The notes under the pieces were generated by a model. That model ran no database searches. It worked only from the letters and a program-made list of their open reading frames with translations, and was not told the origin of the DNA. From contig JABHXU010000004.1 in NCBI GenBank assembly GCA_018657065.1, positions 1 through 64,000 of the forward strand: a DNA stretch of 64,000 bases, in the 5' to 3' direction. Shown in pieces: positions 2,401 to 55,342 of this stretch. Position numbers and translations under genes: made by a program. The DNA is from an archaeon. GTDB taxonomy: Archaea; Nanobdellota; Nanobdellia; Woesearchaeales; GW2011-AR15. Numbering within the stretch: position 1 is the first letter of the stretch; every line of letters begins with the position of its first letter.

Positions 2401-2558
2401 CTTTAAATATTATCCGAATCTATATATTATTATGAGATCAACATCGAGTTCTATAAGCTAACTGCTCTACATTGACTTTAATCTTAACATAATACTGTTT
2501 GAAAATTTTGATAAAATATTAATACTAATATTAATTAAACAAATAAAGGTGATATTAC
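2401..2558 (+). promoter_or_regulatory. serS promoter and leader region
   Basis: A TATA box TTTAAATA (2402-2409) lies 26 nt before the ATG of a nine-codon serine-rich ORF (2432-2461). Downstream are a small A/T hairpin ATTAATA/TATTAAT (2518-2535) and the serS ribosome site GGTGAT (2549-2554). The leader from the predicted transcript start to serS is about 127 nt. No strong GC-rich terminator is visible, so control could act on termination at weak T-runs or on translation. The Ser-codon content is direct observation; regulation is inference. Confidence 0.6.
2432..2461 (+). CDS. Putative serine leader peptide upstream of serS (MRSTSSSIS)
   Basis: This nine-codon ORF encodes MRSTSSSIS followed by TAA. 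Five of its nine residues are serine, written with five different codons (TCA, TCG, AGT, TCT, AGC), so it samples nearly the whole serine codon set. Its ATG sits 26 nt downstream of a TATA box, the spacing used by leaderless genes throughout this window. It ends 97 nt before the seryl-tRNA synthetase start. By analogy with bacterial attenuator leader peptides, ribosome stalling here under low Ser-tRNA could regulate serS. Such a short ORF could still be chance. Confidence 0.65.
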   Translation: MRSTSSSIS

Positions 2559-3839
2559 ATGCTTGATATGAAACTAATAAGAGAAAATCCAGATATAATA
2601 AAAAAAGATTTACAAAAAAGAGATAGACCTGACTTGATTAAAAAGTTAGATGAAGTTAGAGAACTTGATGTTTTATGGAGAGAATCTCTTCAAAAAACTG
2701 AAGACTTTAAACGTCAAAGAAATGTTTTAAGTAAAGAAATAGCTGAATTAAAAAAACAAGATAAGGATGCTTCTGAAAAATTATCTTTAGTTAAAGAGAT
2801 CCCAATTAAAATCAAACAAGAAGAAGAAAAAACTCTTACAATAAAAGAAAAAATAGACATTATTAGATTTGATATACCTAATATATTACATGAATCTGTT
2901 CCTGTTGGAATAGATGATACACAAAATAAAGAAGAAAAAGTTTGGGGTAAAAAACCAAGTCCAGATTTTGAAATTAAAAGTCATGTAGATTTACTTGAAG
3001 AATTTGATTTAGCTGACACAAAAAAAGCAAGTGAAGTAGCAGGAAAAAGATTTTATTATCTAAAAAATGAACTTGTTATGTTAGATTTTGCTTTACAAAA
3101 ATTTGCTTTAGACATACTCTATAAAAAAGGTTTTATTTTAGTTCAACCACCTTTAATGTTAAGGAAATCTTCATACGATACAATGGTTTCAATGGGAGAT
3201 TTTGAAGAAGTTATGTATAAAATAGATGATGAAGATCTTTATTTAATTGCTACATCAGAACATCCACTTGGAGTTTATCATTTAAATGAAACAGTAGACG
3301 CAAAAAAACTCCCATTAAAATATGCTGGAATTTCTCCTTGTTTTAGAAAAGAAGTAGGAAGTCATGGAAAAGACACTAAAGGAATATTTAGAGTTCATAA
3401 TTTTAACAAAATTGAACAATTTGTATTTTGTCGACCAGAAAATTCTTGGAAAATCCATGAAGAAATAACTGCTAACGCTGAAGAAATATTTCAAAAACTT
3501 GAACTGCCTTACCACATTGTAAATGTTTGTACTGGTGACATGGGTGGAATTGCATCTAAAAAATACGATATTGAAGTGTGGATGCCAGGCCAACAAAAAT
3601 ATAGAGAAGTTGTTTCATCAAGTAATTGCACGGATTATCAAGCAAGAAGGCTTAATACTAAATATGAAGAACATGGAAAAAGACAACTTGTTCATACATT
3701 AAATAGTACTGCAATTGCTACAAGTAGAGTAATTGTAGCAATAATGGAAAATTTACAAAATAAAGACGGAAGTTTTAATGTTCCTAAAGCACTTATGCCT
3801 TACATGAATGGGATTAAGGTAATTGGAACAAAAAAATAA
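2559..3839 (+). CDS. serS: Seryl-tRNA synthetase
   Basis: This 426-residue class II synthetase charges tRNA-Ser with serine in the cytoplasm. The N-terminal third (about residues 1-110) is the charged coiled-coil arm that contacts the long variable arm of tRNA-Ser. The catalytic domain shows motif 2 (FRKEVGSHGKDTKGIFRVHNF, about residue 263), the TSEHPLG stretch (about 229) and motif 3 (LNSTAIATSRVIVAIMENLQ, near 385). Length and sequence match the common SerRS found in bacteria and many archaea, not the rare methanogen type. GGTGAT precedes the ATG by 4 nt. It follows a serine-codon leader peptide, and a tRNA-Ser gene lies at 59.46 kb. Confidence 0.96.
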   Translation: MLDMKLIRENPDIIKKDLQKRDRPDLIKKLDEVRELDVLWRESLQKTEDFKRQRNVLSKEIAELKKQDKDASEKLSLVKEIPIKIKQEEEKTLTIKEKIDIIRFDIPNILHESVPVGIDDTQNKEEKVWGKKPSPDFEIKSHVDLLEEFDLADTKKASEVAGKRFYYLKNELVMLDFALQKFALDILYKKGFILVQPPLMLRKSSYDTMVSMGDFEEVMYKIDDEDLYLIATSEHPLGVYHLNETVDAKKLPLKYAGISPCFRKEVGSHGKDTKGIFRVHNFNKIEQFVFCRPENSWKIHEEITANAEEIFQKLELPYHIVNVCTGDMGGIASKKYDIEVWMPGQQKYREVVSSSNCTDYQARRLNTKYEEHGKRQLVHTLNSTAIATSRVIVAIMENLQNKDGSFNVPKALMPYMNGIKVIGTKK

Positions 3840-16698: not shown

Positions 16699-17124
16699 TT
16701 AATTTAATTTTTCTACTAGACCTGAAACAGCACCAATTCCAGCTCCAACAGCAAAACCTAAAGAAGTTACTCCAAAGGCTTTAGCTTGAAAAGAATAAGA
16801 ACGGTTTTTTTCTTTTTCATCGATTTTATCGCTTGCAGGAGGTACATACTCAGGAAAACCATTTTTTGCAAGATAAATAGCACCACGCAATAATTCGAGA
16901 CCACCACAGAGTGCCAATCCATCTAACATTGGACTAGCCACAGCAACATGATCTTTCATAAAAGTTATAACACCAACATCTCCTTCTGCCAGTCCTCTAC
17001 CTCCAACATATCCACCTGCACCACCAATCAAAAAATCAATTGCTAAATTTTTAATAGTGTAACCATCATATCCTTTTGGAACTACCATTGATTTTGGATT
17101 AGGTCTATAAAATAAATTTTTCAT
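16699..17124 (-). CDS. Hypothetical glycine-rich membrane protein, 141 aa
   Basis: I do not recognise a family. Gly-rich hydrophobic segments (FLIGGAGGYVGGRGL near residue 30, FGVTSLGFAVGAGIGAVSGLVEKLN at the end) and a charged stretch SDKIDEKEKNRSYS suggest a small membrane protein. The frame continues upstream to 17148, but that region contains the TATA box. The box lies 28 nt from ATG 17124, so a leaderless start there is chosen. The promoter shares a 36-bp block with that of the next gene. Confidence 0.55.
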   Translation of the reverse strand: MKNLFYRPNPKSMVVPKGYDGYTIKNLAIDFLIGGAGGYVGGRGLAEGDVGVITFMKDHVAVASPMLDGLALCGGLELLRGAIYLAKNGFPEYVPPASDKIDEKEKNRSYSFQAKAFGVTSLGFAVGAGIGAVSGLVEKLN

Positions 17125-20346: not shown

Positions 20347-20847
20347 CAACCAATCAAGAATAGTTTTTACATTATGATGGCTTGCTTTTGTCATAGCTCG
20401 ATCAAGATGAGATGAATATCCTGAATCTTGGTATTTATGAAAAACTTTGACAGCCAAATCAGTCATTTCAAAAACTCTATCTGAACTTTGTTCTGCAATA
20501 ACTAAAGCTTTTTCACCCATTCTAATTTCATGTCTTTCAAGATTTTGCTCAAAAGTCATAAAATCTCTTCTATTTGATCCATAAAAAGAAGAAAATTCTA
20601 GTAATGCATAAATATTATCTACTGAATAAATTCTGCTCTGACTACCTCTCTGAATCTTTCTAACAGGCAATCTACCTTTTAAAGTAGGTATTTTTTTCAT
20701 TTGAGCTTCCCAACTTGTTGTGTGATTATTATATAAAGTACTTTTACTAATACCTAATATCTCTTCGACTTCATGAGGGAGAAACTCTGCGTCAGAGTCA
20801 ATTTTCTCATATTCCGGAACAACAATATCTGAAATACTTGGACTCAT
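20332..20847 (-). CDS. HTH (MerR/excisionase-like) DNA-binding protein
   Basis: The 171 residues start with an acidic segment, then LPHEVEEILGISKSTLYNNHTTSWEAQ (about 23-49), a helix-turn-helix like those of MerR/excisionase proteins. A basic wing RGSQSRIYSVDNIYALLEF and a helical C-terminus follow. A TATA box (20871-20878) lies 27 nt before the ATG, so the mRNA is leaderless. The palindrome ACTACTGAGTAGT (20849-20861) covers the space between them, as in a self-repressing gene. Related words sit at the promoters of nearby exported-protein genes, which makes this the best local candidate for their regulator. That link is inference. Confidence 0.65.
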   Translation of the reverse strand: MSPSISDIVVPEYEKIDSDAEFLPHEVEEILGISKSTLYNNHTTSWEAQMKKIPTLKGRLPVRKIQRGSQSRIYSVDNIYALLEFSSFYGSNRRDFMTFEQNLERHEIRMGEKALVIAEQSSDRVFEMTDLAVKVFHKYQDSGYSSHLDRAMTKASHHNVKTILDWLSYKS

Positions 20848-48486: not shown

Positions 48487-50481
48487 TTAGAATTTAAACT
48501 TAAGTTCTTTATCATCAATATTTTCTCTAAGTTTCTTAATTAATTTTTCTACTTTAACTCCAAACTTAACTTGTCCATCTAAAGTTCTTAATGCAACAGT
48601 ATTGTTTTCAATTTCTTTATCTCCAATAGTAAGCATTATAGGAATTTTTTGAAGTTGAGCTTCTCTAACTTTTTTTGGAATAGATTCTGCTCTATTATCT
48701 AATTCAACTCTAATTCCTGCTTTTTTGAATTCATCAACAACTTTTTGAGCTTTTTTCTCTAGTTTTTGAGAAATTGTCATAATTCTTACTTGAACTGGAC
48801 TTAACCAAATTGGGAATTTCCCAGCAAAATGTTCAATTAAAAATCCAATAAATCTCTCGTGAGTTCCTAATGGAGCTCTATGAATTACAACTGGAACATG
48901 ATCTTTTCCATCTTTTCCAGCATATTTTAAATTGAATTTCCCAGGCATGAATAAATCAATTTGGTTAGTTGATGCTGTAAATTCTCTACCTATAACTGAT
49001 TTAATTTGAAAATCAATTTTAGGACCATAAAAAGCTGCTCCACCTTGTTCAACTTTATATTTTACACCTGATTTTTCCATTGCTTTTCTCATCAGATCTT
49101 CAGCTTCAACCCACATTTCTTCTTCTCCATGATATTTATCATCACTCGGGTCTCTTAAAGCTAGTTCCATTTGATACTCTTTAATACCTAATTTTTTGTA
49201 ATAGTATTCATGAAGTCTAATAACATCAATGAATTCTTTTACTGCTTGCTCTTTTGTACAATAAATATGAGCATCATTCATTTGCATGCCTCTAACCCTC
49301 ATTAAGCCTGTTATTGCTCCACTTTGTTCATATCTATGACATGTACCATACTCTGCAACTCTAAGTGGCAAATCCCTATAAGATCGAGGTCTAGCTGAAA
49401 ATACTTTATGATGAAATGGGCAATTCATTGGTTTAATATAATATTTTTCACCATCAATATTCATTGGTGCAAACATTGAATCTTTATAGTGAGGCAAATG
49501 TTCACTTGTATGAAACAATCCTTCTTTAGTTATCATTGGTGTAGTTACTCTAACATAACCCCATTTTTCTTCAGTTTCTTTAGCCCAATTTTCTAATTCT
49601 TCTTTAATTATATTTCCTTTAGGAAGCCAAATAACAAGTCCAGGTCCAATATCTTCATCAATTTCAAAAATATCTAATTCTCTACCAATTTTTCTATGAT
49701 CTCTTTTTTTAGCTTCTTCAAGCAAGTTCAAATGCTTTTTTAATTCTTTTTTATCTTGAAATGCTGTTCCATATATCCTTTGAAGTTGTTCATTTTCTGA
49801 ATTTCCTCTCCAATAAGCTGAAGCTATACTTAGAAGTTTAACATACCCAACTTGACTTGTTGATCTAACGTGAGGTCCTGCACATAAATCTGCAAATTCT
49901 TCCCCTGTGTAATATATTGTTGCTTTTTCTTTATTTTGTTCAATTTCATCAAGCCATTCTTGTTTATACTTGTTTCCCTTGAAAAGTTTTCTAACTTCTT
50001 TAACTGAAAGTTCTTTTCTAACTATAGGTAAATCTGCCTTGATAATTTTTTTCATTTCTGATTCAATTTTTTCAAAATCTTCTTTGGAAAATCTTTTATT
50101 TGAATCAAAATCAAAATAATATCCTTCGTCTGTTGCTGGACCCATAGCCATTAAAACTCCAGGATATAAATTCAACATTGCTTGAGTTAAAATATGTTCA
50201 GCTGTATGCCAAATTACTTTTTTTCCTTCGTGATCTTTCCCTGTTAATATTTTAAAATTACAGTTTTTATCAATAGGCCTATCTAAGTCCCAGACTTCAC
50301 CATCAACAACAACAGCTAATGATGCTCTTGCTAATCCTTCTCCAATCGATTTAGCGATTTCATAACCACTAACACCTTTTTTATATTCTTTTTTTGATCC
50401 ATCTGGTAATGTAATTTTTATTCCTGGAAAATCTTTAGATTTTCTGGCACTATTAATCTTTGATTGATTTGTGTTTGACAT
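48487..50481 (-). CDS. thrS: Threonyl-tRNA synthetase (bacterial-type)
   Basis: The 664 residues follow the bacterial ThrRS order. A TGS domain comes first (ITLPDGSKKEYKKGVSGYEIAKSIG, about 22-46). A second additional editing domain follows, with HTAEHILTQAM (H-x-x-x-H, about 91-101) and the C/H site YTGEEFADLCAGPHVRSTSQVG. The class II core has motif 2 YRDLPLRVAEYGTCHRYEQSGAITGLMRVRGM and zinc ligands, and the C-terminal anticodon-binding domain ends the protein. Typical archaeal ThrRS has a different editing domain, so the gene was probably acquired from bacteria. GGTGAT lies 5 nt before the ATG. It is preceded by a threonine-codon leader peptide and three hairpins. Confidence 0.96.
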   Translation of the reverse strand: MSNTNQSKINSARKSKDFPGIKITLPDGSKKEYKKGVSGYEIAKSIGEGLARASLAVVVDGEVWDLDRPIDKNCNFKILTGKDHEGKKVIWHTAEHILTQAMLNLYPGVLMAMGPATDEGYYFDFDSNKRFSKEDFEKIESEMKKIIKADLPIVRKELSVKEVRKLFKGNKYKQEWLDEIEQNKEKATIYYTGEEFADLCAGPHVRSTSQVGYVKLLSIASAYWRGNSENEQLQRIYGTAFQDKKELKKHLNLLEEAKKRDHRKIGRELDIFEIDEDIGPGLVIWLPKGNIIKEELENWAKETEEKWGYVRVTTPMITKEGLFHTSEHLPHYKDSMFAPMNIDGEKYYIKPMNCPFHHKVFSARPRSYRDLPLRVAEYGTCHRYEQSGAITGLMRVRGMQMNDAHIYCTKEQAVKEFIDVIRLHEYYYKKLGIKEYQMELALRDPSDDKYHGEEEMWVEAEDLMRKAMEKSGVKYKVEQGGAAFYGPKIDFQIKSVIGREFTASTNQIDLFMPGKFNLKYAGKDGKDHVPVVIHRAPLGTHERFIGFLIEHFAGKFPIWLSPVQVRIMTISQKLEKKAQKVVDEFKKAGIRVELDNRAESIPKKVREAQLQKIPIMLTIGDKEIENNTVALRTLDGQVKFGVKVEKLIKKLRENIDDKELKFKF

Positions 50482-50532
50482 TTATAATCACCTTCAATAT
50501 TATTATTTTTTAATTAAGTACAATAAAAATCT

Positions 50533-50577
50533 TTTGAAAAACAAAGTTTTTCAAAGCCTAGAAAATTTTATTTTCTA
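50533..50577 (-). terminator. Two hairpins of the thrS leader, the second followed by a T-run
   Basis: On the minus strand, TAGAAAAT/ATTTTCTA (50559-50577) is followed by TTTGAAAAAC/GTTTTTCAAA (50533-50555) and then AGATTTTTATTG. The last could act as a terminator. AAAAAC upstream (minus strand, 50580-50585) could pair with GTTTTT and prevent that hairpin, an alternative fold expected of an attenuator. Pairings were read by eye. Confidence 0.5.
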
Positions 50578-50603
50578 ATGTTTTTATAAAATAGTTAAAC
50601 AAT

Positions 50604-50634
50604 GAACACCTAACAAGTCGTTGGTGCCGTGTTC
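50604..50634 (-). promoter_or_regulatory. Hairpin over the Thr codons of the thrS leader
   Basis: GAACAC (minus 50634-50629) pairs with GTGTTC (50609-50604), enclosing Thr codons and the TAG of the leader peptide. A competing inner stem is CACCAAC/GTTAGGTG with a one-base bulge. A ribosome stalled at the Thr codons would disrupt this fold. Confidence 0.5.
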
Positions 50635-50699
50635 GTCGTATCATTATCTAGAATTAATAAAATAAACTCTTCAATATCTCCAAATACTGTTTGTGGCAT
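50610..50699 (-). CDS. Putative threonine leader peptide upstream of thrS, 29 aa
   Basis: The ORF begins MPQTVFGDIEEF and ends DNDTTNTAPTTC before TAG. Six of 29 residues are threonine, five of them within the last nine, encoded by ACG four times and ACT once. A TATA box TTTATATA (50724-50731) is centred 28 nt before its ATG, the spacing of leaderless genes in this window, so the transcript should start at this ATG. Its end overlaps a hairpin, and two more hairpins plus a T-run lie before thrS, whose start is 128 nt downstream of the stop. This is attenuator architecture; regulation is inference. Confidence 0.75.
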   Translation of the reverse strand: MPQTVFGDIEEFILLILDNDTTNTAPTTC

Positions 50700-50736
50700 G
50701 ATGAAAAGATAAGACCTATTTAATATATAAAAGTTA

Positions 50737-50877: not shown

Positions 50878-51453
50878 ATGAAACTTAAAATTGGAGTTAT
50901 GGGAAGTGCTGCAAAAGTTAATGATATTACTTTAAAAGAAAGAGCTAGAGAAGTAGGTAGAGAAATTGCTCGTCACAATTGTATTTTAGTTAATGGTGCA
51001 ACAACTGGAATGCCTAACGAAGCTGCTATTGGATGTAGAGAAGAAGATGGTTTTGTTATGGGAATAAGTCCCGCTATGGATCTAGATGAACATATTAAAA
51101 AATGGAAACTCCCATATAAGGAATATGATCTAATTGTTTATACTGGACAAGGATTTATGTTTAGAGATATTTTAAACATTAGAACTTCTGATGCTGTTGT
51201 GTTTTTAAGAGGATCTGTAGGAACACTTAATGAATTTACTATTGGTTTTGAGGAAGGAAAAGTAATGGGAATTTTAGAGAACATGGGTGGAATTTCTGGA
51301 TTTATTGATGAAATCATCCAAATAGCAAAAAAAGAAACAAATGCCACAGTTATTTACGAAAAAGACCCAAAAAAATTAATTAGAAAACTTGTCCAAGAAG
51401 TTCAAAAACAAAATAGAAGAACACATAAAAAAAGTATAAAGATGGTTGGGTAG
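50878..51453 (+). CDS. LOG-family / lysine decarboxylase-like Rossmann protein
   Basis: The 191-residue protein has the LOG/TIGR00725 layout: KLKIGVMGSAAKVNDITLKERAREVGREIARHNCILVNGATTGMPNEAA at the start and the signature FLRGSVGTLNEFTIGFEEGKVMGIL (variant of PGG-x-GT-x-x-E), placing the catalytic Glu. LOG enzymes release free bases from nucleoside monophosphates, but many family members are uncharacterised. GAGGTG lies 7 nt before the ATG. It is convergent with the interrupted acetyltransferase. Confidence 0.75.
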   Translation: MKLKIGVMGSAAKVNDITLKERAREVGREIARHNCILVNGATTGMPNEAAIGCREEDGFVMGISPAMDLDEHIKKWKLPYKEYDLIVYTGQGFMFRDILNIRTSDAVVFLRGSVGTLNEFTIGFEEGKVMGILENMGGISGFIDEIIQIAKKETNATVIYEKDPKKLIRKLVQEVQKQNRRTHKKSIKMVG

Positions 51454-52659: not shown

Positions 52660-52779
52660 TGGGCCCAAGGAGATTTGAACTCCCGACCACTGGCTTTCCT
52701 AGAAAAGCTTTGTGTTCGTAACAATGTACGAAGCGTAGCCATATAAGACCAGCGCTCCACCAGACTAAGCTATGGGCCC
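52660..52779 (-). tRNA. tRNA-Ile (anticodon UAU) with intron
   Basis: On the minus strand: acceptor stem GGGCCCA/TGGGCCC with discriminator A, D-stem GCTT/GAGC, anticodon stem CTGGT/GCCAG, loop CTTATAA with U33 and anticodon UAU, and T-arm GGGAG-TTCAAAT-CTCCT. A 46-nt intron (52696-52741) separates position 37 from 38; its first bases TGGCT can pair with AGCCA at the start of the 3' exon, as expected for a splicing-endonuclease substrate, although I cannot place a perfect bulge-helix-bulge. UAU reads AUA directly, unlike the usual archaeal CAU-agmatidine tRNA-Ile2. CCA is not encoded. Confidence 0.85.
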
Positions 52780-54104: not shown

Positions 54105-55342
54105 AAGTTCTTATGTTTGGATGGGAATTCCCACCAAATAATAAAGGAGGACTTGGAACTGCTTGTTATGGTTTAACTAGAGGTCTAAGTAAACAAGGTA
54201 TTGATATAACTTTAGTTCTACCTAAAAAAAATGAACCTCATGACCATGTTGAAATAATTCCTGCTGATACACTCTATATTGGTAATCAAAAAATTAAACT
54301 CCAATATGTAAACTCACTTCTTACTGCTTACATGGATAATTGTGAATATTCAAAAGAAATTAAAAATTATGAAGAGAGTTTTAAACGTTTAATAACTGGA
54401 AATACTAGTGATTCTGATTTATATGGAAAAGATTTGTACTCAGAAGTTCATAGATATGCTAAAAAAGCTAAAATAATTGCTCTTTTTGAAGATTTTGATG
54501 TTATACACTGCCATGATTGGATGACTTTTAAAGCTGGAATTGAAGCTAAAAAAGCTACTGGAAAACCTCTTGTTGTTCATGTTCATGCAACTGATTTTGA
54601 TAGAACGGGAGGAAATCCAAATCAACATGTTTATGATATTGAAAGACAAGGCATGCATGAAGCAGATAAAATTATCACAGTTAGTGAATTTACAAAAAAT
54701 ATGATTATAAAACATTATGGAATTAATAACGAGAAAATTAAAGTTGTTCATAATGGTATTGAATATAGTAAACCTAAAAAAACTGAAAAATTTGGTTCTA
54801 ATGAAAAAATTGTATTATTCTTAGGAAGATTAACTTTACAAAAAGGACCTGAATATTTTATGGAAGCAGCAAAAAAAGCTCTTGATATAAGATCAGATAT
54901 TAAATTTATAGTTGCCGGAACTGGTGACATGTATGGAAAAATGATTAATAAGGCTGCTGAACTAGGAATAGCAAAAAATGTCTTATTTACAGGTCATTTA
55001 CGTGGGGACGATGTGGACAAAGCATACCAGATGGCGGATTTATATGTTATGCCTTCTGTTTCTGAGCCTTTTGGAATTACACCTCTAGAAGCTCTTAAGA
55101 ACAATACACCTGTTCTAATTTCCAACACCTCTGGGGTGTCTGAAGTCCTAACCAATGCTCTAAAAGTTGATTTTTGGGATGTTGACGAAATGACTAACAA
55201 GATAGTATCAGCAGTAAGCTATGGTAGCCTTAACAAATCATTAGTAAAAAATGGAAACAAAGACATCAAAGCAATTACATGGGACAAAGCAGCAAAAAAA
55301 TGTGTAGATGTGTATCACACTGTTAGAGGGATAGAAAAATGA
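54101..55342 (+). CDS. GT4-family glycosyltransferase (glycogen/maltodextrin metabolism)
   Basis: The 413 residues have the GT-B opening KVLMFGWEFPPNNKGGLGTACYGLTRGL and the C-terminal nucleotide-sugar site LFLGRLTLQKGPEYFMEAAKKAL and PSVSEPFGITPLEALKNNTPVLISNTSGVSE, as in GT4/GT5 synthases. The start is TTG 54101, which gives MKVLMFGWEF and has GGGGTGA 7 nt upstream; the extended frame to 54083 would overlap that site. It overlaps the GH57 gene by 4 bp. Within this operon it probably acts on alpha-glucan. Confidence 0.85.
   Translation: MKVLMFGWEFPPNNKGGLGTACYGLTRGLSKQGIDITLVLPKKNEPHDHVEIIPADTLYIGNQKIKLQYVNSLLTAYMDNCEYSKEIKNYEESFKRLITGNTSDSDLYGKDLYSEVHRYAKKAKIIALFEDFDVIHCHDWMTFKAGIEAKKATGKPLVVHVHATDFDRTGGNPNQHVYDIERQGMHEADKIITVSEFTKNMIIKHYGINNEKIKVVHNGIEYSKPKKTEKFGSNEKIVLFLGRLTLQKGPEYFMEAAKKALDIRSDIKFIVAGTGDMYGKMINKAAELGIAKNVLFTGHLRGDDVDKAYQMADLYVMPSVSEPFGITPLEALKNNTPVLISNTSGVSEVLTNALKVDFWDVDEMTNKIVSAVSYGSLNKSLVKNGNKDIKAITWDKAAKKCVDVYHTVRGIEK

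Follow-up and report, generated by a model that had tools for sequence, protein, structure and literature searches.

A candidate ribosome-mediated attenuator with a threonine leader peptide upstream of thrS in a woesearchaeal archaeon, and cognate leaders at other genes

The threonyl-tRNA synthetase gene thrS lies on the minus strand of the window (the whole 64,000-nucleotide stretch of DNA analysed here), separated by 128 nt from the stop codon of a short ORF rich in threonine codons. In the order of transcription, the locus comprises the following elements:

50724-50731, minus strand: TATA box TTTATATA of the leader promoter, starting 32 nt upstream of the leader ATG
50610-50699, minus strand: Thr leader peptide ORF MPQTVFGDIEEFILLILDNDTTNTAPTTC, 29 codons, stop TAG, Thr in 5 of the last 9 codons
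50604-50634, minus strand: hairpin region, the inverted repeat GAACAC...GTGTTC over the last Thr codons and the stop
50598-50606, minus strand: motif TTCAKTGKY, here TTCATTGTT, with 5 nt between the stop and CATTG
50560-50576 and 50534-50554, minus strand: two A/T inverted repeats, with a short T-run (region 50521-50576), a possible local terminator not kept in relatives
50521-50531, minus strand: GATTTTTATTG, 3' of both inverted repeats
50487-50494, minus strand: Shine-Dalgarno sequence AAGGTGAT of thrS, complementary to the 16S 3' end of this genome, ATCACCTCC
48487-50481, minus strand: thrS, threonyl-tRNA synthetase, 664 aa (TIGR00418; TGS, SAD, class II core and HGTP anticodon-binding domains)

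The first-pass annotation had pointed to the TATA box ahead of the ORF, to the Thr codons at its end and to thrS as the next gene, all of which are confirmed in the sequence. The hairpin it had placed over the Thr codons exists as well; the minimum-energy fold at the leader end pairs CACCAAC with GTTAGGTG (50607-50626) in place of the GAACAC and GTGTTC arms. Folded as a whole, the thrS leader of the window gains little over shuffled sequence (z = −1.7, not beyond chance), and its stop hairpin alone is not above shuffles. A terminator scan of this region of the window returned 0 sites, and Rfam covariance models at gathering score gave no T-box or leader-family match in the window, only two tRNAs. 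Three things were absent from the earlier description: the TTCAKTGKY motif past the leader stop, a second leader in the same window, at serS, and the regulon to which both may belong. Two neighbouring features were recorded on the way: the gene of a SLOG cluster 4 (LDcluster4) protein at 50878-51453 on the plus strand, divergent to the Thr leader promoter, and a 120-nt Rfam tRNA match missed by ARAGORN at 52660-52779 on the minus strand, whose length suggests an intron-containing tRNA.

The serS locus, on the plus strand, has the same arrangement:

2402-2409, plus strand: TATA box TTTAAATA of the serS leader, 30 nt upstream of the leader ATG
2432-2461, plus strand: Ser leader peptide ORF MRSTSSSIS, stop TAA
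2468-2476, plus strand: motif TACATTGAC past the leader stop, CATTG at 2470-2474
2545-2553, plus strand: Shine-Dalgarno sequence AAAGGTGAT of serS
2559-3839, plus strand: serS, seryl-tRNA synthetase (TIGR00414)

We scanned the window's genome (G000), as joined stretches of 1.48 Mb, in two ways, with gene names checked against NCBIfam and Pfam. Short ORFs with CAKTG soon past their stop and ahead of a gene gave 35 raw matches, most of them chance; short ORFs whose ATG follows a TATA box by 28-33 nt, whatever the amino acid, gave 33 candidates, six of which bear CAKTG and precede valS, serS, leuS, thrS, the cysS operon and PEP carboxylase. Both scans, the one based on CAKTG and the one based on the TATA box, point to the same gene set. 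The valS leader ends in ..FVVVVN and the leuS leader in ..LKLLL. Two tandem Cys leaders (C18 ~16800-17000, L205), MYLDCCC with CAGTGG and then a longer one, ..ILCCCC, with CATTG, precede a BshB/PIG-L-like gene followed by cysS. The PEP carboxylase leader ends in ..NNDGNCSVIDCDNN, which would fit Asp/Asn supply. Leader-like ORFs lacking CAKTG were seen at tyrS (..YFSYGFYKYY), glyS (..LMGNGN) and a gene for a HisC-like aminotransferase (..SSYYYF). Past the glyS leader (C9 ~55100-55262, L222) come AAAGACACAAC, TGTCTTT and GTTGTGTCTTT, for which alternative hairpins are possible, an individual case resembling the antiterminator/terminator pair of a classical attenuator. No leader was found in this genome at argS, asnS, metS, lysS, trpS or alaS; by inspection, a TATA-like box lies close to the ATG of these genes themselves, and a Shine-Dalgarno sequence is lacking. 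Elsewhere (C9 ~20400-20716, L221), a short ORF with CATTG, MLTNNNLNIESWC, which may or may not be a leader, stands before a tRNA-like sequence (anticodon CCA, Trp) and a 105-aa gene.

We then compared ~122 thrS upstream regions within the same order, most of them from draft assemblies; the set includes two pairs of identical loci (L053 = L141 and L048 = L127). A leader ORF stands at thrS in every one of the ten genomes of the window's family; it is Thr-rich in most (ends such as ...LTTATTTTTC, ...TTDSTTTTTTTC and ...SDTTTTTC) and degenerate in two (PRTATY in G002, ATAAAQ in G007). About ten further families carry one. A wider contig search gave mainly bacterial loci and a few useful archaeal ones, among them L048, which has a leader. 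Comparison among relatives bears out the ORF and, in most genomes, its Thr-rich character, but not the downstream hairpins. A short ORF whose last ten codons include four or more Thr stands ahead of 15 of 122 thrS genes; at the ~148 other genes examined (other aminoacyl-tRNA synthetase genes and PEP carboxylase), there was none. The Leu counterpart of this count gave 11 of 23 leuS genes. Fixed rules underlie these two counts, as well as the TATA scan and the comparison of CAKTG with other ORFs given below. In the non-Thr part of the thrS leaders of close relatives, pN is 0.22-0.30 and pS 0.7-1.2 (synonymous sites being saturated); with pN well below pS, the leader ORF appears to be translated as a peptide. 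In families f1 and f7 (L001, L003, L009, L012, L048, L114), a GD[IV][ED]EFILL-like pattern persists in the leader's N-terminal half through many synonymous changes, and the peptide may itself matter there. In family f10 (L020, L125, L143, L148), the Thr leader is kept, the Shine-Dalgarno sequence of thrS is missing and a TATA-like box lies close to the thrS ATG, which suggests a second, internal promoter and perhaps a different wiring.

Thr leaders are not confined to thrS: one ending in ..TTSTTTTTTTC precedes an aspartokinase gene (L504), whose product catalyses the first step toward threonine, and another, ..TTPTTTTA, precedes a gene for a protein with the archaeal-type ThrRS N-terminal domain (L502). 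A further candidate, L501, was dropped, its sequence being inside an RNA polymerase subunit gene. When the phylum was searched with the Thr-leader pattern, there was no convincing match in other orders of the class.

Leaders for other amino acids recur in the relatives, at leuS in 10-11 genomes (e.g. LLLLLVL, ALLLLL, LLLVLLL), valS in six and ileS in five (SIIII, SIIIM, SVIII, GIII); candidate cysS leaders occur in three genomes besides G000 (CCCW, ALCCNS, CFCCC), and a pheS leader in one (HIFFFI), with a strong hairpin after it. Among the relatives examined, the Tyr, PEP carboxylase and serS leaders are not clearly conserved outside G000, and no leader was found at hisS. Cognate leaders at serS, cysS, tyrS, glyS, pheS, PEP carboxylase and aspartokinase are each found in one or a few genomes, and many aminoacyl-tRNA synthetase genes and genomes have none. 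The occurrence of cognate leaders at thrS, leuS, valS, ileS, aspartokinase and other genes indicates that the amino acid of the leader tracks the function of the gene and not ancestry. As judged from these comparisons, the thrS leader is one case of a larger set of predicted cognate leaders, a regulon. Conservation of the leader and the cognate leaders at many other genes lend strong support to the core idea of the first-pass annotation, a putative leader peptide that senses Thr and controls thrS in an archaeon.

The shared anatomy was described on a curated set of 40 leaders at thrS, valS and leuS, picked by eye together with their start codons. In most of them, with start codons so assigned, a TATA box TTTAAATA or TTTATATA stands 28-33 nt before the leader ATG; from this spacing of ~30 nt, the leader mRNA is predicted to be leaderless. 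Over the curated leaders and six further peptides, the share of cognate residues is highest from −2 to −5, counted from the stop (89, 83, 67 and 65%), and is down to about one in ten at −11. CAK(T/C)G occurs within 28 nt past the stop in 30 of the 40 curated leaders, at 3-10 nt in 29 of those 30, and is lacking over this distance in the other ten; the consensus is TTCAKTGKY, with a pyrimidine at the last position in 30/30. CAKTG lies near the stop of 22 of 34 cognate leaders; for the other short ORFs of these regions, the count is 19 of 380 (Fisher p = 4e-17). Past the stops of ordinary genes, it shows no enrichment (11/1349), and the idea of a general terminator signal of ordinary genes was dropped on this count. 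A T-box-like pairing of UGGN to tRNA ends was likewise dropped because many motifs read CATTGTT. In the DNA, the 20 nt past the motif contain 51% T versus 29% A (p = 4e-5); the T-runs are short (mean longest run 4.4, versus 3.8 in shuffled sequence). Shine-Dalgarno sequences are present at 35 of 45 leader-bearing main genes versus 23 of 129 without a leader (p = 7e-13; curated list against all other loci), as would be expected if ribosomes read the former from mRNAs that begin with a 5' leader.

A short hairpin holds the stop codon in its loop in many leaders at thrS and in some at leuS (e.g. ACCTGC-TGA-GCAGGT, ACCTCT-TAG-AGAGGT, ACAGC-TTAA-GCTGT, TGCTC-TAAA-GAGCA); it is missing from valS leaders and from some thrS and leuS leaders. 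These stop hairpins exceed shuffles at thrS overall (p = 0.001), weakly at leuS (p = 0.07) and not at valS. Their arms covary across genomes (41 compensated cells over 15 distinct hairpins), a result reported with caution because the arm register was chosen by hand; the shuffle comparison is the unbiased test. Between the motif and the main gene, folding is no stronger than in shuffles (mean z = −0.05, p = 0.66, 37 leaders), and a competing hairpin pair is hence not a general feature; individual loci such as L181 come close to an intrinsic terminator (GC hairpin and U-run). The hairpins and T-run described downstream of the window's leader are thus present in the sequence, but they are not kept in relatives, where such hairpins are no stabler than shuffles. 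With the empty terminator scan, this speaks against the full bacterial attenuator layout proposed at first, with competing antiterminator and terminator hairpins and a T-run.

Building on the observed anatomy and conservation, the cognate match for several amino acids, the peptide-level selection and the presence of FttA/aCPSF1 in the host (TIGR03675, E = 3e-194), we consider it likely that the thrS leader is a ribosome-mediated attenuator sensing charged tRNA-Thr and a member of the regulon. In this scheme, the promoter would fire at or just before the leader ATG, and a ribosome would load at once on the leaderless mRNA and trail RNA polymerase. With Thr-tRNA plentiful, the ribosome would reach the stop and leave, exposing the stop hairpin (where present), TTCAKTGKY and the U-rich tract, upon which RNA polymerase would stop, either intrinsically or with FttA/aCPSF1. 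With Thr-tRNA short, it would stall on the Thr codons 2-5 positions ahead of the stop, its front edge, by our estimate, covering the hairpin or the motif close behind the polymerase; termination would be blocked, and transcription would enter thrS, translated from its own Shine-Dalgarno sequence. The cognate codons are placed such that a stalled ribosome would, by our estimate, cover the stop hairpin and reach the motif, which points to codon-based sensing of charged tRNA, and the U-rich tract and the motif point to termination as the controlled step. We infer the stalling, the termination and its direction from this arrangement, together with the role of the motif, which could signal a pause or termination, or bind a protein. 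Mutual exclusion of the ribosome and FttA on Spt5 of the elongation complex is so far a proposal (PMC8116511, PMC11616081).

The same leaders might instead act on translation, the leader RNA masking the thrS Shine-Dalgarno sequence and a Thr-stalled ribosome freeing it, with transcription uninterrupted. The start would indeed be maskable, given the Shine-Dalgarno sequence at most leader-bearing genes; we nevertheless regard such control as improbable, as the leader pairs with the Shine-Dalgarno sequence of the main gene no more strongly than shuffled leaders do (mean z = +0.22, p = 0.13, 30 loci), the distance from the leader stop to the main gene varies widely and no conserved structure lies in between. 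It also seems unlikely that a second promoter just past the leader is the main one, on which leader transcription or the motif would act by interference or as a DNA-binding site. The TATA-like boxes lying 28-58 nt ahead of the main gene do outscore shuffles (8.4 versus 6.3, p = 2e-7), with perfect ones at L386, L388 and L400, and the four f10 loci lacking a Shine-Dalgarno sequence fit this scenario, such a promoter perhaps being in use in some genomes; these gene-proximal boxes are, however, weaker and variably spaced, whereas leader promoters are near-perfect at a fixed ~30 nt, the narrow distance between leader stop and motif would be unneeded by a DNA site, and the cognate codons would be unexplained without translation.

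The peptide-level selection seen among close relatives outside the Thr residues of the thrS leaders would also be compatible with a nascent peptide that senses the free amino acid in the ribosome tunnel by TnaC-like arrest, instead of through codons. We give this very little weight: the leaders otherwise vary greatly in sequence, runs of cognate residues for several amino acids suit codon sensing, and most of the regulated genes encode synthetases, which produce charged tRNA. That the ORFs are functionless products of chance or low complexity is hardly credible. AT-rich DNA is rich in short ORFs, and the Thr enrichment of the single window ORF taken alone is moderate (p = 1.4e-4 before multiple testing), but chance is contradicted by the conservation across families, the cognate match for several amino acids and the selection on the peptide.

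Regarding ribosome-mediated attenuation of transcription, which we prefer, no transcription attenuation or antitermination was known in archaea according to a 2021 paper (PMC8448881), and we found no later archaeal example of attenuation in the open-access literature. We lean, if only slightly, towards seeing here its first archaeal case: a woesearchaeal amino-acid regulon of many synthetases and some biosynthetic genes, with leaderless leader peptides and a new signal composed of TTCAKTGKY and a U-tract (the stop hairpin being optional), in which the stalled ribosome would exclude FttA or intrinsic termination and no hairpins would be swapped. If true, archaea sense amino acids via the translating ribosome, and the leaders offer a natural case, defined in sequence, on which to test whether transcription and translation are coupled and whether ribosome and FttA exclude each other as proposed. 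It would also predict regulated genes in DPANN archaea, which are mostly uncultured, supply a new termination or pause motif, and suggest that archaea either evolved attenuation independently or rebuilt it with their own machinery.

The closest parallels are the bacterial ribosome-mediated attenuators (thrL, leuL, ilvL, pheL, pheST), in which a short ORF with cognate codons likewise precedes biosynthesis or synthetase genes and a stalled ribosome is the sensor, as proposed here; the Thr leader before aspartokinase parallels thrL-thrABC. The archaeal leaders differ from them in the predicted leaderless start ~30 nt from the TATA box, in cognate codons that abut the stop, in a shared TTCAKTGKY and U-rich tract in place of a conserved antiterminator/terminator pair, and in the reuse of one system for many synthetases. 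As in Rho-dependent occlusion of the tnaC type and blocking of the pyrBI type, a ribosome near the leader stop would decide on access to termination; the signal in those systems is an arrest peptide or the UTP level, whereas here it would be a shortage of charged tRNA, and the expected factor would be FttA/aCPSF1 or an intrinsic U-tract. T-box riboswitches also control synthetases in cis by tRNA charging, but the archaeal leaders would sense it via translated codons and have no Rfam T-box match. The translational operator of E. coli thrS controls the same gene through a tRNA-like structure bound by ThrRS, whereas no masking of the Shine-Dalgarno sequence is seen here. Finally, termination by FttA/aCPSF1, encoded in this genome, targets U-rich RNA and has been proposed to be excluded by the ribosome (PMC11616081, PMC8116511); there it serves as quality control, whereas the version at the archaeal leaders would be a regulated, gene-specific switch.
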